DNA of 34,783 nt from Bacteroidia bacterium (GTDB taxonomy: Bacteria > Bacteroidota > Bacteroidia > Flavobacteriales > Schleiferiaceae). A program made the position numbers and the translations under genes. This document shows, in pieces, positions 13,077 to 20,708 of this stretch. The DNA is taken from contig JAUICR010000007.1 of assembly GCA_030427785.1 (NCBI GenBank), positions 1 through 34,783 on the forward strand. The letters run 5' to 3'. Numbering within the stretch: position 1 is the first letter of the stretch; the number at the start of each line of letters is the position of its first letter. The notes beneath the pieces are model-generated. The model ran no database searches, was not told the origin of the DNA, and saw only the letters and a program-made list of their open reading frames with translations.

Positions 13077-13943
13077 TTAGGTAAGGTTGGCAGATTTGAA
13101 GCTCAATCGCTTTAGCAGTTTACTCCACCCCCAAGCACCAGCAAACAATATACCCGCCACAGTTGCCATGGCTCCTGCAATACTTCCATCCAAAACTAAT
13201 GCTAGGTAATAACCACCGATAGCGGTTAATACACCGAGTAGTGCCGTTAGCCAAAGCATCTTTTTAAGACTATCAGTAAGTAGATATGCAGCAGCAGGAG
13301 GTGTGATAAGTAGAGCAACTACCAAAATAGCTCCTACCGATTCGAATGAAACGACCGTAGTAAGGCTTACCAGGCCCATAAAACCAAAGTGCCAAAAGGC
13401 TGTAGAAATGCCTAATGCCTGAGCATAATCAGCATTGAAAGTAGTAAGCACCAATCCTTTATAGCCACGCCATAGGGCTAGCAAAATCAAAACTATTACA
13501 GAGCCGCTAATCCACAGCGCACGAGGGCCTATCGAGTTTCCTCCTACAGTTAGGGTATCCAGCGGCACATAGGCTATTTCGCCATACAATACACACTCTT
13601 GGTCCAAGTCTATTTGGCCAGTATAGGCCGATATAAGGATGACTCCCAAAGCAAATAGCCACGTAAACGTAACTCCTATTGAGGCGTCTTCTTGAAGTTT
13701 GGCTTTCTTATGCAACAGCTCGATGATAACTGTAGTAAGCACCCCAATGATAGATGCGCCTATTAGCATAGGAAGGTTTCCTCTTGAGCCTGAAATGAGA
13801 AAGGCCAGAACGATACCTGGCAGCACGGCATGAGAAATGGCATCGCCAACCATTGCCATTTTTCGAAGGATTAAAAAGCAGCCAAGCAAGCCGCAGCTTA
13901 CGGCTATTACTGATGCTGTGAGTATAATGTAGAATGCTGCCAC
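13077..13943 (-). CDS. Metal (Mn/Zn/Fe) ABC transporter permease, ABC-3 family
   Basis: GCFLILRKMAMVGDAISHAVLPGIVLAFL; ESVGAILVVALLITPPAAAYLLT. Confidence 0.92.
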   Translation of the reverse strand: MAAFYIILTASVIAVSCGLLGCFLILRKMAMVGDAISHAVLPGIVLAFLISGSRGNLPMLIGASIIGVLTTVIIELLHKKAKLQEDASIGVTFTWLFALGVILISAYTGQIDLDQECVLYGEIAYVPLDTLTVGGNSIGPRALWISGSVIVLILLALWRGYKGLVLTTFNADYAQALGISTAFWHFGFMGLVSLTTVVSFESVGAILVVALLITPPAAAYLLTDSLKKMLWLTALLGVLTAIGGYYLALVLDGSIAGAMATVAGILFAGAWGWSKLLKRLSFKSANLT

Positions 13944-13983: not shown

Positions 13984-14145
13984 TCTTGATAAAAAAGTAG
14001 GCAAAAAATCAAGGCTTCTTATAACCTTCTAAAATGCTACGGCTCTCTTACCCTTCGAAGCCCCAGCCGTTTCGCTCAGCTGCACTTCGGCACTTCTCTG
14101 GGGTAAGCTTTACTAGCTTTTCTACGAAGTTTCTAAAAGGCCGGT
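13984..14145 (+). repeat. Interspersed repeat copy A
   Basis: Aligns by eye with 16391-16565: shared CTTGAT..AAAAAAG..CAAAAAATC.AGGCT at one end and TTCTAAAAGGCC[GA]GTC at the other. Confidence 0.6.
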
Positions 14146-14222
14146 CCTAAATTGCTAAGCAATTTTAGGTTGGGTTAATTCTCCTTTTCATTTGTCTGGA
14201 TCGGTTTTCAATTTTTTAGCTT

Positions 14223-14264
14223 CCCTACTCCCTACTCCCTACTCCCTACTCCCTACTCCCTACT
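14223..14264 (+). repeat. Heptanucleotide tandem repeat (CCCTACT)x6
   Basis: Six perfect consecutive CCCTACT units, overlapping the last two bases of the permease stop-codon region. Confidence 0.97.
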
Positions 14265-15552
14265 ATTTATACGGAATCGGACTTTCATGTGGGTCCTTAT
14301 CAGGGTAACCCAATTCACGAATTAGTTCTTCTTCTATTTCGGGGCTAATAATATGTTCAATAGTTTCGGCATTTGGGTGAATATGATCGGCCTTGAGGCG
14401 CATACGCTGGGTGAGATACATTTCCCAAAGGCGGTGCAAACGCACCACACGCATAGCTTCTGTGCGGCCTACTTCAGTTAGTTTAAAACCATCATTTTGG
14501 CTAAGTATTAAGAACCGTTTTGACAATAAACGCAAGCCCTTTTTTAGTTCAGCTTCTCCAAATTCTCGAATCCCTTGTAGATCTTCTAAGCTAATGATGG
14601 AGCTAAGGTTTTTACGCCTTTCGCTCAAGTGATAAGCCGCTTTTAAAATGTTTTCCGTCAAAATCTTTTCTCGGTTTTGACGCTGCCTTTTTAGTTTTGA
14701 CCATAGCCCGCGCTTGGGTGCCCACACCAATGAAATAATAGCAATGGCCGATAGGCTCATCACTATCCATGGGCCTGTGGGCATGTTAGGAGCAGTAAAG
14801 CTAATATAAGACCCAACTAGGCCCGAAAACATTCCTGCAAAACCTGCAATAAGCAGTAATGTCACCAAGTTCTCTGTCCATGAGCGAGCAGCTGCAGCAG
14901 GTGTAATAATCAAGGCTGCCATCAACACTACCCCTACTGCTTGTATACCGGTAGCAATGGCCAGTACTGTAATAGAGGATAAAACAAACTCTAAGCTACG
15001 AACAGGCAGGCCGGATATTTTTGCAAATTCAGCATTGAAGCTTAAAAGTTTGAATTCTTTAAACAGCAGTGATACTACAATTAACAGAAAAGCGGCTACA
15101 ATAGAATAAGCCTTAAGATCAGCAGTAGTCATGGAGGCAGCTTTGCCAAATAAAAACTGATCGAGCCCAGCCTGATTGCCCGCGCCCGAGTGCTGAATAT
15201 GGGTTAAAAGCAGTATACCAACACCAAAAAATACGCTAAGAACAAGGCCTATGGAGGTATCTGCCTTTAGCTTAGAATGTTTGGTAATGGCTTCAATAAG
15301 TAGAATCGCTACCCATCCGGCCAGCAAGGCGCCAAACATTAAGTAATAAGGGTTTTTACTTTGGGTGACCATAAAGGCTATGGCAATACCGGGGAGAATA
15401 GCGTGGGCTATAGCATCGCCAATAAGTGAGCGCTTGCGCAAAAAAGCAAAACTACCCACCATGGCGGCACTCATGCCTATAAACATGGTACCGAGTGTAA
15501 CTACCCTCACATTGGGGTTGCTAAAGCTTAAAAATTCAAGAAGCTCTTTCAT
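14263..15552 (-). CDS. Metal ABC transporter permease (ABC-3) fused to a C-terminal DtxR/MntR-like domain
   Basis: N-terminal ABC-3 permease (FLRKRSLIGDAIAHAILPGIAIAFM; QAVGVVLMAALIITPAAAAR). The C-terminal 131 aa align with the MntR ORF at 17682-18341. Start at 15552 (MKELLEFLSF) preferred over 15588. Confidence 0.88.
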   Translation of the reverse strand: MKELLEFLSFSNPNVRVVTLGTMFIGMSAAMVGSFAFLRKRSLIGDAIAHAILPGIAIAFMVTQSKNPYYLMFGALLAGWVAILLIEAITKHSKLKADTSIGLVLSVFFGVGILLLTHIQHSGAGNQAGLDQFLFGKAASMTTADLKAYSIVAAFLLIVVSLLFKEFKLLSFNAEFAKISGLPVRSLEFVLSSITVLAIATGIQAVGVVLMAALIITPAAAARSWTENLVTLLLIAGFAGMFSGLVGSYISFTAPNMPTGPWIVMSLSAIAIISLVWAPKRGLWSKLKRQRQNREKILTENILKAAYHLSERRKNLSSIISLEDLQGIREFGEAELKKGLRLLSKRFLILSQNDGFKLTEVGRTEAMRVVRLHRLWEMYLTQRMRLKADHIHPNAETIEHIISPEIEEELIRELGYPDKDPHESPIPYK

Positions 15553-16366
15553 CACCTGGTCCTTCTTTTTCTTTAAACTCGCTTTCACGCATAGGAAAAT
15601 CTTGCTTTGCCATCAAATCTCCAATACGAGAAAGAACCGTAAGTCTGCCTCCGTAAGCCTCCTGAAGGAGCTCGGTAGAAAACACCTCTTGCTTGGGACC
15701 TGACGCCACCAAGCGCGTGTTCAAGAGTACTATCCAATCAAAATATTCGTAGGCCGTTTGTAAATCGTGATGCACAATAACCACTGTTTTTCCTTCCTTT
15801 TTCATTTCCGAAAGTAGGTTAAGAATAGATTCTTCAGTAGCTGCATCTACCCCTACAAAGGGTTCGTCCATTAGGTATAAATCGGCCTGCTGCGCCAATG
15901 ATCGAGCAATGAAAACCCGTTGTTGCTGTCCTCCCGATAGCTGAGATATTTGTCTATTGGCAAAGGGTAGCATGTTTACTTTTTCAAGTGATTCGGTGGC
16001 TATATCACGATCTTTTTTGCTAAGCCTCTTAAAAATATTGCTCTTGCGATAGCGGCCCATCAGCACTACGTCCATCACATTGGCTGGAAAATCCCAATCT
16101 ACAGTTTCGCGCTGGGGCACATAGCTTACTTTTTCGCGAACTTCGTCAAGCTTTTTCCCAAACAGATTTACATATCCGCTGTCGGGTTTCATAAGGCCCA
16201 TCATATTTCGCAGCAACGTAGTTTTTCCTGAGCCATTAGGACCTACAATACCAATTAGCTGACCTTGAGGTAAACTAAAGTCAATATCCCACAATACCGG
16301 CTTGCGGTTGTAACTAGCTGTAAGGTTGTGTACCTCTATTGCAGTTTTTTCAGGTCTGATGTCCAT
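15536..16366 (-). CDS. Metal ABC transporter ATP-binding protein
   Basis: Walker A GPNGSGKTT, signature LSGGQQQRV, Walker B ADLYLMDEPF. Confidence 0.95.
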   Translation of the reverse strand: MDIRPEKTAIEVHNLTASYNRKPVLWDIDFSLPQGQLIGIVGPNGSGKTTLLRNMMGLMKPDSGYVNLFGKKLDEVREKVSYVPQRETVDWDFPANVMDVVLMGRYRKSNIFKRLSKKDRDIATESLEKVNMLPFANRQISQLSGGQQQRVFIARSLAQQADLYLMDEPFVGVDAATEESILNLLSEMKKEGKTVVIVHHDLQTAYEYFDWIVLLNTRLVASGPKQEVFSTELLQEAYGGRLTVLSRIGDLMAKQDFPMRESEFKEKEGPGDERAS

Positions 16367-16390: not shown

Positions 16391-16565
16391 TTCTTTGCTG
16401 GATCAAAAAAGAACCAAAAAAATCGAGGCTACTAATAAATTTCTTGAAAACCAAGGCTTTAACTTTCTCCCGAAATCCAAGCCATTCCGCTACGCTTCAT
16501 TTCAGGATTTCTCATAAATCGAAAGTTTCATCCTTGTTTTCTACCAAATTTCTAAAAGGCCAGTC
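16391..16565 (+). repeat. Interspersed repeat copy B
   Basis: Diverged copy of 13984-14145 in the same orientation. Confidence 0.6.
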
Positions 16566-16767: not shown

Positions 16768-17685
16768 CTATCTCAACGCCTCCGTTATCACCTTCACATT
16801 GTGCTCTACCATTCCAATGTATGTTCCTTCTGCAGTGCCAGCCGCCCCAAGGGCATCAGAAAAAAGCTCCCCTCCAAGCTGCACCTCATGGCCGTTTTCT
16901 TTGCATCCCTCTATCACGGCTTCTATAGATTTTGTTGGAACTGAGCTTTCCACAAAAATGGCTTTAATCCTTTTTTCGGTAATATAGTTTACCAAATCAC
17001 TCACATCTCTAAGGCCATATTCTGCAGCTGTACTTATGCCCTGTAGTCCTCTTACTTTCACACCATAGGCTTTGCCAAAATACTTAAAAGCGTCATGAGC
17101 CGTAATGATTACTCGTTGATCCTGAGGAATACTGCTAATACTTTTCTTTACAGACTGATGTAAATCCTTCAATTGAATTACATAAGCTTCTTGGTTTTTA
17201 GCTATAAATTCTGCCATATTGGGATACCTTATTTGTAGCTGCTCGCTCAATCCGTTTATTGCTTGAATCCAAATAGATACATCAAACCAAATATGGGGAT
17301 CCTCACCGCCTTGAAATTCTGAATTATTAATCAGGCTGGTTCGAGGAACCTGGTCTCCCATGGAAATTACGGCTTTGCTAGAAGTGAGCTTTTCAAAGAT
17401 TTCTCCCATTTTTCCTTCCAGATGCAGCCCATTGTAAACCACTACATCGGCCTTTGTCAATGCTTCAATATCTCCTTGCGTAGCCTTGTACAAATGTGGG
17501 TCAACACCAGGCCCCATAAGGGTTATCACCTCAAGGCTATCGCCCACCAAGTGTACTACAGCATCGCTTATCATTCCAGTAGTACATACTATAGAGGGGC
17601 GTTTTTTTCCCGGAGCCTCAGCATCACAGGCCATTGTACCGAAGGCTGCCAAAAGCACAAGGCTTATTTTTTTTAAGAGTTTCAT
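16768..17685 (-). CDS. Metal ABC transporter substrate-binding lipoprotein (TroA/MntC/ZnuA family)
   Basis: Lipobox LLAAFGTMACDAE; GPGVDPHLYKATQGDIEALTKADVVVYNGLHLEGKM; EDPHIWFDVSIW; HDAFKYFGKAYG; no His-rich loop. ATGA overlap with the mntR stop. Confidence 0.95.
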   Translation of the reverse strand: MKLLKKISLVLLAAFGTMACDAEAPGKKRPSIVCTTGMISDAVVHLVGDSLEVITLMGPGVDPHLYKATQGDIEALTKADVVVYNGLHLEGKMGEIFEKLTSSKAVISMGDQVPRTSLINNSEFQGGEDPHIWFDVSIWIQAINGLSEQLQIRYPNMAEFIAKNQEAYVIQLKDLHQSVKKSISSIPQDQRVIITAHDAFKYFGKAYGVKVRGLQGISTAAEYGLRDVSDLVNYITEKRIKAIFVESSVPTKSIEAVIEGCKENGHEVQLGGELFSDALGAAGTAEGTYIGMVEHNVKVITEALR

Positions 17686-18341
17686 TTTGTTATCACAAAT
17701 AGATTAGCGCATACTTGATGACTTAGATTTAGTAAGGAACCACCGTTTATTTTTACTTTCATAGAGTTATCATAGTCCTCTTTTTCAAGAATTTCCAACT
17801 CTTCACCCAGCCCTAGATTTAGTTTTTTCAAATAGTTTAAAAAATCGGCTGATGTGTCCTTTACGCCCTTCACTATTACGATGTCATTTAATGAGCACTC
17901 TGTAAGGGTTTGGTCAGTGCGGTTCGGAAAAACCAAATCCTTATTAGGTATAGGGTCTCCATGTGGGTCATACTTTGGAAAAGCCAAAAACTCATCCAGT
18001 TTGTCAGTAAGCTTGGTTGATTGGATATGCTCCAGCTGCTCGGCAATCTCATGCACTTCCTCCCAGCCAAATTCTAGCTTGTTTACTAAAAAAACCTCCC
18101 ACAAGCGATGCTTTCGTACGGTCTTTATAGCTACAGTTTTACCCAAGTCAGTAAGATTTACCCCTTGGTATTTCTTATAAACCAGTAATTTTTTATCACT
18201 AAGCTTCTTAAGCATATCCGTTACTGAGGCTGCTTTGGTATTAAGTCTTTCGGCTATGGCATTGGTGGCAGCGCCTTTCTTTGTATTCTCAGAGAGGTGA
18301 TAAATGGCCTTTAAATAGTTTTCTTCTGTAAATGTGTACAT
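17682..18341 (-). CDS. mntR: DtxR/MntR-family metal-dependent transcriptional regulator
   Basis: YTFTEENYLKAIYHLSE...AASVTDMLKKLSDKKLL...TVRKHRLWEVFL...VHEIAEQLEHIQS. ATG at 18341 preferred over the TTG at 18356 used in the ORF track. Confidence 0.9.
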   Translation of the reverse strand: MYTFTEENYLKAIYHLSENTKKGAATNAIAERLNTKAASVTDMLKKLSDKKLLVYKKYQGVNLTDLGKTVAIKTVRKHRLWEVFLVNKLEFGWEEVHEIAEQLEHIQSTKLTDKLDEFLAFPKYDPHGDPIPNKDLVFPNRTDQTLTECSLNDIVIVKGVKDTSADFLNYLKKLNLGLGEELEILEKEDYDNSMKVKINGGSLLNLSHQVCANLFVITK

Positions 18342-18357
18342 ATCACTTGTTGACAAA

Positions 18358-18408
18358 GCAAATCTAAAATTATTATTTGATAAGTACTTGTGTAATATTT
18401 AGATTTGC
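18358..18408. promoter_or_regulatory. Divergent promoter/operator: 11-bp perfect inverted repeat GCAAATCTAAA...TTTAGATTTGC
   Basis: Arms 18358-18368 and 18398-18408. Each arm holds TAGATTTG (TAnnTTTG) reading outward. + strand has TTTG (18376-18379) 20 bp upstream of TAGATTTG (18400-18407). Confidence 0.7.
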
Positions 18409-18434
18409 CTAAATTTAAACTTTGACCAACAAAA

Positions 18435-20708
18435 ATGCAAAAAACCTTAGCAACAGTATTTAGTCTAGTATGCTTGCTTAGTGCGGTCGGTACCCTAGCA
18501 CAAAAAGGTAAGATTGTAGGTCGTGTGATTTCTTATGACGGGCCAATTCCGCAGGCTAATATTATTGTAAAAGGGACGAGCATAGGAGTAGCTACAGGAG
18601 TGGATGGAACCTACAGCCTTGCCATGGCAGTAGGTAATTACGAAATAGAAGGGAGTTTTATTGGGATGGCTACCCAAACGCAAAACATCGAAGTAAAGGC
18701 AGGTGAAACTACAATTGTGAACTTTTTTTTAAGTGAGTCATCTTCTGGTCTTAATGAAGTGGTTGTAAGTGGCACGATGAAAGAGGTTAGCCGCTCTGAA
18801 AGCCCAGTGCCTGTGGAGGTGTACACAGCTAAGTTTTTCGAAAAAAACCCTACACCAAGTCTATTTGAAGCATTACAAAACATAAATGGAGTAAGGCCCC
18901 AACTCAACTGCAACGTGTGTAATACGGGCGATATTCACATAAATGGATTAGAAGGCCCTTATACGCAAGTGCTTATTGATGGAATGCCAATAGTTAGCGG
19001 TTTGTCTACCGTGTATGGGTTGATGGGAATCCCAAATTCGATGGTAGAAAGGGTGGAGGTAGTAAAAGGCCCTGCATCTTCGCTGTATGGTTCAGAGTCG
19101 GTAGGTGGATTAATAAATGTGATAACAAAAATGCCCAATCTTGCTCCTGTATTTTCTTTAGATATAATGGGAACCACCTGGCAGGAGCTGAACGTAGATA
19201 TTGGTTTAAAAAATAAAGTAGGTGAAAAGGCTTCGGTTTTAACAGGTATTAATTTGTTTAACTACACAAACCCGGTTGACAATAACAAGGATCACTTTAC
19301 AGATGTAACTCTTCAGGAGCGAGCGTCCATTTTTCAGAAGTGGGATTTCAGCAAAAACAATCGCCTGTTTACACTTGCAGGTCGCTACTTTTATGAAGAC
19401 CGATATGGGGGTGAAATGAATTGGACCCCTCAGGACAGAGGGAGCGATGAGGTGTATGGGGAGAGCATTATTACCAAACGATGGGAGCTTACTTCGCAGT
19501 ACCAATTACCACTGCAGGAAAAGGTTATGTTTTGGCTGTCACTTAACGGTCATCATCAGAATTCTTACTATGGAGACGTTCCATATTTTGCCAATCAAAA
19601 GATATTTTTTGGACAATTAACCTGGGATAAGGAAATTCAAAAACACGCATTACTCTCTGGTGTGGCCTTGCGATTTACACATTATAATGATAATACTCCG
19701 GCTACAGCACTTCCTGCTAATACCCCTCTTCCGGGAGTGTTTGTGCAGGATGAAATTTCCTTTTCAAAAAAGCACTTGCTTTTGCTAGGAATCAGGTACG
19801 ATTATCATCGTGAGCATGGGGGCATTTTTACGCCTCGTATGGCTTATAAATGGAGTTTGAAAAAAAATAGCTCTATTCGCATTAATGCTGGCTCGGGCTT
19901 TAGAGTGGTTAATTTGTTTACCGAAGAACATGCCGCTCTTACTGGTGCAAGGGAGGTTGAGGTTATAGAAGAGTTATCACCGGAGCGCAGTTATAATATA
20001 AATCTAAACTACCTGAAAAAATGGTTTTTGGGAAAGGCGTATGTAAGCATCGATGGCTCTGCATGGTATACCTATTTTACCAATCAAATACTTCCGGATT
20101 ACGATACAAATCCCAACAAGATTATTTACGATAATTTGAATGGCTCAGCTGTGAGTAGGGGTATCAGCTTAAATCTTGAGGCTGTACTGCAATCGGGTAT
20201 TAGCCTTAGGGCAGGAGCAAGCTATTTGGATATTTATACCGCTGAGGTAAACGAAAGTGGAGAGACTATTACAAAAAGACCTGTACTGGCCGAAGAATGG
20301 ACAGCTACCTGGGCCCTAAGTTACCACTGGAAAAAATTAGACTTAAGTTTTGATTACACGGGCAATTTGTACGGCCCCATGCGGCTGCCTTTACTTGGTG
20401 AATTAGACCCAAGAGATGAATATTCACCATGGTGGAGCATTCAGAATATTCAAACCACCTGGGCGCCCAAGGGCAAGAAATGGGAACTGTACGGAGGGGT
20501 AAAAAACTTATTGAACCTTACACCACCAGCCAATAGTATTGCTCGTGCAAATGATCCCTTTGATAAAAATGTGGTTTTTGATGTGGATGGAAACCCCGTA
20601 TCTACACCAGATAACCCGTATGCTCTTACCTTTGATCCGGGCTATGTATATGCTCCAAACCAAGGAATTAGAGGCTACATTGGGTTTAGGTACAGATTTT
20701 CAAATTAG
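18435..20708 (+). CDS. TonB-dependent receptor with N-terminal carboxypeptidase-like regulatory domain
   Basis: GKIVGRVISYDGPIPQANIIVKGTSIGVATGVDGTYSL; plug GDIHINGLEGPYTQVLIDGMPIVSGLSTVYGLMGIPNSMVERVEVVKGPASSLYGSESVGGLINVITK; C-terminal barrel ending YIGFRYRFSN. Confidence 0.95.
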   Translation: MQKTLATVFSLVCLLSAVGTLAQKGKIVGRVISYDGPIPQANIIVKGTSIGVATGVDGTYSLAMAVGNYEIEGSFIGMATQTQNIEVKAGETTIVNFFLSESSSGLNEVVVSGTMKEVSRSESPVPVEVYTAKFFEKNPTPSLFEALQNINGVRPQLNCNVCNTGDIHINGLEGPYTQVLIDGMPIVSGLSTVYGLMGIPNSMVERVEVVKGPASSLYGSESVGGLINVITKMPNLAPVFSLDIMGTTWQELNVDIGLKNKVGEKASVLTGINLFNYTNPVDNNKDHFTDVTLQERASIFQKWDFSKNNRLFTLAGRYFYEDRYGGEMNWTPQDRGSDEVYGESIITKRWELTSQYQLPLQEKVMFWLSLNGHHQNSYYGDVPYFANQKIFFGQLTWDKEIQKHALLSGVALRFTHYNDNTPATALPANTPLPGVFVQDEISFSKKHLLLLGIRYDYHREHGGIFTPRMAYKWSLKKNSSIRINAGSGFRVVNLFTEEHAALTGAREVEVIEELSPERSYNINLNYLKKWFLGKAYVSIDGSAWYTYFTNQILPDYDTNPNKIIYDNLNGSAVSRGISLNLEAVLQSGISLRAGASYLDIYTAEVNESGETITKRPVLAEEWTATWALSYHWKKLDLSFDYTGNLYGPMRLPLLGELDPRDEYSPWWSIQNIQTTWAPKGKKWELYGGVKNLLNLTPPANSIARANDPFDKNVVFDVDGNPVSTPDNPYALTFDPGYVYAPNQGIRGYIGFRYRFSN

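Follow-up and report, generated by a model that had tools for sequence, protein, structure and literature searches.

The window, that is the whole stretch of 34,783 nucleotides analyzed here, contains an operon for an ABC metal importer on its minus strand. The gene order is mntR, substrate-binding protein, ATPase, permease::DtxR and permease 2. The free MntR (17682-18356, with a likely start at ATG 18341) comprises a helix-turn-helix (HTH), a metal domain and a FeoA domain, with PF01325, PF02742 and PF04023 all scoring over their cut-offs. It is followed by a substrate-binding protein of the ZnuA/PsaA family (16768-17685; PF01297, 241 bits) and the ATPase of the importer (15536-16366; PF00005, 111 bits), for which the best NCBIfam models are Mn/Fe ATPases. 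Downstream of the fusion gene (14263-15552) the last gene encodes a second ABC-3 permease (13077-13943; PF00950, 175 bits) that has no DtxR extension and ends near the transmembrane border. A single transcript across the operon is likely, despite gaps of about 400 bases between the genes for the binding protein and the ATPase and about 320 bases between the fusion and permease 2. The two intergenic gaps on either side of the ATPase and fusion gene pair contain the sequence GGCCTTTTAGAAAnTTnGTAGAAAA at 14118-14142 and 16537-16561 (minus strand), and these are its only two copies genome-wide. Directly after the stop codon of the fusion there are six copies of the 7-base tandem repeat TCCCTAC (14222-14264).

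A TonB-dependent receptor gene (18435-20708) is divergent from mntR, and between the two lies the 16 bp palindrome TTTAGGCAAATCTAAA (18398-18413), the probable operator of the free MntR. No other site in the window fits its pattern without a mismatch; the pattern was defined after seeing the site, and if two mismatches are allowed the count in the window is no more than expected by chance. A TTTAGG-N4-CCTAAA-like site with p ≤ 0.04 by mononucleotide shuffling is present in 28 of 31 regions upstream of mntR, including that of the window. Perfect sites number seven in the 391 kb of 30 loci, and all are just upstream of mntR. We infer that MntR binds this palindrome, and both mntR and the divergent receptor gene may be under its control.

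Anatomy and conservation of the fused domain

The fusion (14263-15552, minus strand) is a single open frame of 429 amino acids. Its longest version extends to 15588 with a GTG start, giving 441 amino acids, but ATG 15552 is the likelier start; it agrees with the boundary given in the preliminary description, and falls inside the ATPase gene so that the two genes overlap. The ABC-3 (PF00950; 214 bits, E = 2.8e-63) and Fe_dep_repr_C (PF02742; 82 bits against a cut-off of 27, E = 2.7e-23) families both score far over their cut-offs, which rules out a chance match. In the AlphaFold model (pLDDT 86.8) an ABC permease fold precedes one that resembles DtxR. In Foldseek searches the model matched PsaBC with E = 6.6e-16 (7kyp, target TM 0.89), and its matches to DtxR/MntR repressors include 8pw0, over 129 columns with an rmsd of 1.9. 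The preliminary description of this locus, as an ABC metal permease joined to a DtxR/MntR-like domain, is thus borne out by the intact frame, by both Pfam families and by the structural model. That description took the domain to be a full one. The winged helix and the metal domain are indeed there, but the third (FeoA/SH3) domain, which the operon's own MntR possesses, is absent from the fusion.

The permease part comprises residues 1-276 (14725-15552), as supported by PF00950 and the Foldseek match to 7kyp. Residues 277-360 (14473-14724) form a linker and winged-helix domain in the AlphaFold model, with a conserved AP..RG motif at the border. An unbroken helix from 283 to 313, with pLDDT of about 90, starts just past the last membrane helix, and its end is the first DtxR helix, bearing the ligand N300. 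Residues 361-429 (14266-14472) make up the metal-binding/dimerization domain (PF02742), which contains ligands H372, E376, H391, E395, E398 and H399.

The metal site is strongly conserved. H372, E376, H391, E398 and H399 are identical in 28/28 Bacteroidota fusions. E395 is E in 26 of these and D in the other two, and N300 is N in 17, D in eight and H in three. We take H372, E376 and H391 to be the equivalents of the ancillary ligands His79, Glu83 and His98 of DtxR. N300 is the N-terminal metal ligand of the fusion, at the place of Asp8 in Bacillus subtilis MntR. The MntR ligand set comprises Asp8, Glu99, Glu102 and His103, together with Glu11 and His77 (PMC9861239), and the counterparts in the fusion are N300, E395, E398, H399 and H372. 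The Glu11 position is lysine in both the fused domain and the free MntR of the window. A further histidine that is specific to the fusions, His389, lies beside the metal site in 25 of the 28. In fusions of other phyla H391 is replaced by D in 9/26, and the E395 position is E, D or H. The ligand positions named at the outset are therefore present and kept across homologs, and the recognition helix differs from that of the free MntR, as had been stated.

The DNA-reading part behaves differently. In 20 genomes that have both proteins, the mean pairwise identity in the recognition helix is 27% for the fused domains and 66% for the free MntRs, compared with 55% and 60% respectively in the metal domain. 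The corresponding interaction (helix or metal domain, fused or free) is 0.34 ± 0.03 by jackknife. Free Bacteroidota MntRs have an ASVTxM-like conservation in the recognition-helix columns, with Met at 100%; the alignment revealed nothing comparable in these columns of the fusions, where the equivalent segment (residues 332-345; 14518-14559) is unconserved. The wing is unconserved too. PF01325 (Fe_dep_repress), the N-terminal DNA-binding family, gave no match with the fusion protein of the window, and was matched by only 6/28 fused domains, all weakly, as against 28/28 free MntRs. The HTH is degenerate even in the two genomes (G205 and G221) where no free DtxR-like protein turned up. We rejected separate translation of the DtxR domain from an internal start, since no start codon common to the relatives was found in the fusions. 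IdeR, a relative of DtxR, is reported to read DNA by indirect readout (PMC8464063). The divergence of the recognition helix therefore weakens, rather than excludes, DNA binding by the fused domain.

Distribution and age of the fusion

Of 397 Bacteroidota genomes searched, 74 gave a match at E ≤ 1e-60, and in 32, including that of the window, this was full-length to the end of the query. Full-length identity to the closest relatives is 51-52%. Most of the full-length relatives have retained the order of the operon, and a free MntR adjoins most full-fusion operons. A frameshift or assembly joint, raised earlier as a possible artefact, is rejected by this recurrence of both architecture and operon.

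Three architectures were found in Bacteroidota. In the first, that of the window and of most of loci L103-L118, permease 1 carries the winged helix and metal domain, permease 2 is plain and a free mntR lies upstream. In the second there is a single permease, which is fused (L075, L078, L079, L081, L082). In the third, a short class (L063-L102), each permease has a C-terminal tail of about 90 residues that consists of the winged helix and lacks the metal domain; 31 loci have the tail on both permeases. Similar fusions are frequent in Verrucomicrobiota and Planctomycetota, often in tandem on both permeases, and a free MntR is present there too.

In profile comparisons the short tail of permease 1 aligns with the fused winged helix with probability 99.1 (E = 8.6e-19), and those of permease 2 with probability 98.2-98.4; the tail of permease 1 gave no alignment with the metal domain. 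The tail of permease 2 is modelled as a winged helix (pLDDT 85.9), with weak Foldseek E-values of about 0.02. Each tail has invariant histidines, H36 and H43 in permease 1, and H35, H39 and H57 in permease 2, and these might form a separate metal site between the subunits. Since the short class keeps the winged helix on both permeases, this module evidently remains part of the transporter when the DtxR dimer domain is gone. It also follows that the wider family can do without the metal domain.

Some loci depart from these arrangements. At L091, L092 and L093 the permease carries the complete set of three DtxR domains, FeoA among them, and neither an ATPase nor a binding-protein gene was found adjacent. 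L119, L120 and L121 have full fusions with no other transporter genes nearby, and in the genomes of the first two (G205 and G221) no further Fe_dep_repr_C match was found. Open reading frames of 855 and 735 amino acids (L280:3058-5622 and L281:5315-7519) have a C-terminal Fe_dep_repr_C-like domain; in L280 this is preceded by Pfam ABC_tran, i.e. a DtxR fusion on the ATPase side. A search of plasmids returned mostly plain permeases, plus a Halomonas permease of 368 amino acids (L305:4489-5595) with a short winged-helix-like tail, so that such tails may occur in Gammaproteobacteria too. In the genome of the window, which is 92% complete, no Fe_dep_repr_C domain was found apart from those of the fusion and the free MntR.

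A tree of 115 domains (132 columns, quick search) places 55 fused domains apart from 60 free MntRs with an SH-aLRT of 98; one of the 55 is labelled free, as its reading frame is cut. The fused domain of the window falls among Bacteroidota fusions, and its MntR among Bacteroidota MntRs. The tree therefore does not support the suggestion that the fused domain was duplicated from the neighboring mntR, at least in the local sense, and we reject a recent duplication. As judged from this tree, the fused lineage is old and common to at least three phyla. Relaxed constraint on the HTH could itself pull the fused sequences together, and a single origin is therefore likely but not proven.

Function of the fused domain

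The reading best supported by these comparisons is that the fused domain senses metal in the cytosol and acts on the transporter, rather than being a DNA-binding repressor, because the ligands are invariant, the recognition helix is unconserved and the free MntR has a probable operator that is itself conserved. On balance we lean towards the view that the window protein is a Bacteroidota member of an old permease::DtxR (YtgCR-like) family, part of an MntR-controlled Mn/Fe ABC importer, in which the C-terminal domain senses cytosolic metal and most likely shuts the transporter down when Mn/Fe is high. The preliminary description had offered a sensor or a membrane-tethered regulator. The sensor is now the better supported of the two, whereas feedback gating is something that we infer.

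On this model the C-terminal domain would stay at the cytosolic side of the permease. Cytosolic Mn/Fe would fill a site made by N300, on the helix continuing from the last membrane helix, together with H372, E376, H391, E395, E398 and H399. Mn in the N-terminal site of MntR acts as a glue between the N-terminal and dimerization domains (PMC9861239), and metal might similarly pin the two halves of the tail together, fixing the tail relative to the permease and passing strain on to it. The transporter would then most likely be shut down, and control of transcription would be left to the free MntR and the TTTAGG palindrome. Metal binding by the fused domain is predicted from its ligands, and gating of the transporter is the presumed consequence; inhibition by high cytosolic metal is suggested by analogy with MetNI and ModABC, as ABC importers under transinhibition do exist (PMC10710835). 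Several points count against this model. A P1-P2 transporter has a single fused permease, so that dimerization of the DtxR domain would require either a second transporter or a partner. DNA binding is made less likely, rather than excluded, by the diverged recognition helix, and the short class has lost the metal domain altogether. In addition, chlamydial YtgR binds DNA and is cut off its permease.

In one alternative, the domain would be a metal-loaded repressor of DNA targets, either released from the permease by cleavage or still tethered to the membrane. The fusion and gene order are as in Chlamydia ytgABCD, where YtgR undergoes cleavage, binds DNA together with Fe2+ and acts as a repressor of its own operon (PMC5599777, PMC6504234), orthologous fusions have been reported in 11 phyla (PMC5599777) and the fusions keep their metal ligands. 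Yet the recognition helix and wing are unconserved and PF01325 is lost, the relatives share no internal start codon, and the job probably falls to the free MntR with its conserved site. We consider such a repressor unlikely. It is less likely again that the domain hands over or buffers metal, accepting Mn/Fe where it leaves the permease on the cytosolic side and relaying it with transport unregulated. Invariant ligands on a cytosolic tail, with the fusion-specific His389 beside the metal site, would suit such a role, but the domain is homologous to a metal switch, and the continuity of the N300 helix with the linker from the membrane helix fits signaling better. The domain might also be a structural leftover that does no more than stabilize the permease, or the interface between permease and ATPase. 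The sister short class retains the winged helix only, which is consistent with this, but it has invariant histidines of its own, and in the full fusions none of the metal ligands varies although the winged helix drifts elsewhere; we regard a purely structural role as very improbable. The least probable is that the fused domain pairs with the free MntR through the DtxR dimer interface, coupling transporter state to repression: the dimerization domain is retained, a free MntR is encoded in the same operon and one fused domain per transporter leaves the interface free, but the fused and free domains diverged long ago, fusions are kept in genomes that yielded no free DtxR-like protein, and in single-permease operons two fused copies could pair with each other.

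Comparison with known systems

The permease-repressor fusion as a kind is already known from Chlamydia trachomatis YtgCR (CT069/CTL0325), in which the YtgC permease is fused to YtgR, a cleaved, Fe-dependent, DNA-binding protein (PMC5599777, PMC6504234); the preliminary description did not mention this precedent. The same transcriptional mechanism has been suggested for orthologous fusions, which were reported in 11 phyla (PMC5599777). Beyond the chlamydial papers, our search of the open literature found no work on permease::DtxR fusions. Like YtgCR, the window protein has an ABC-3 permease and a C-terminal DtxR-like domain in one polypeptide, and the fusion is the third gene in the order binding protein, ATPase, permease::DtxR, permease, both in the window and in its relatives. 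Metal ligands are kept in both, on the chlamydial side according to the literature. The systems differ in that YtgR is described as the only identified iron-dependent regulator there, whereas the operon of the window is headed by a free MntR. They differ also in that YtgR has been shown to be cleaved and to bind DNA, whereas fusions of the window type have an unconserved recognition helix.

What is new in these phyla, on the sequence comparisons, is that the DNA-reading part appears not to be maintained while the metal site is, together with a class that lacks the metal domain. A broader proposal, which we put forward tentatively and with less confidence than the sensor role itself, is that, in Bacteroidota, Verrucomicrobiota and Planctomycetota, a cytosolic sensor that derives from DtxR and has given up DNA binding directly gates the Mn/Fe importers. 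The short class, after losing the metal domain, would have rebuilt the same sensing role with histidine sites on the winged-helix tails of both permeases, and chlamydial YtgR would then be the exception rather than the model for the family. Permease-repressor fusions have so far been read from Chlamydia alone, as a route to a repressor; our comparisons suggest that metal sensing is all that the fused domain has retained in several large phyla. If so, a transcription factor would have been turned into a post-translational brake on Mn/Fe uptake.

The fused domain shares its fold, its metal/dimerization domain and its ligands with MntR, DtxR, TroR and IdeR, but is attached to a permease, lacks FeoA and is unmatched by PF01325. 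The permease, ATPase and binding protein are of the same families as those of PsaBC, MntABC and TroABCD, but the solved permeases, with chains of about 290 residues, have no C-terminal domain. In MetNI and ModABC the sensing domain is located on the ATPase and is not DtxR-like. The resemblance to these importers is that one of the subunits bears a fused cytosolic domain that senses the substrate (PMC10710835), the sensor of the window being a predicted one. If that prediction is correct, DtxR-type switches would join the small set of known regulatory domains of ABC importers.
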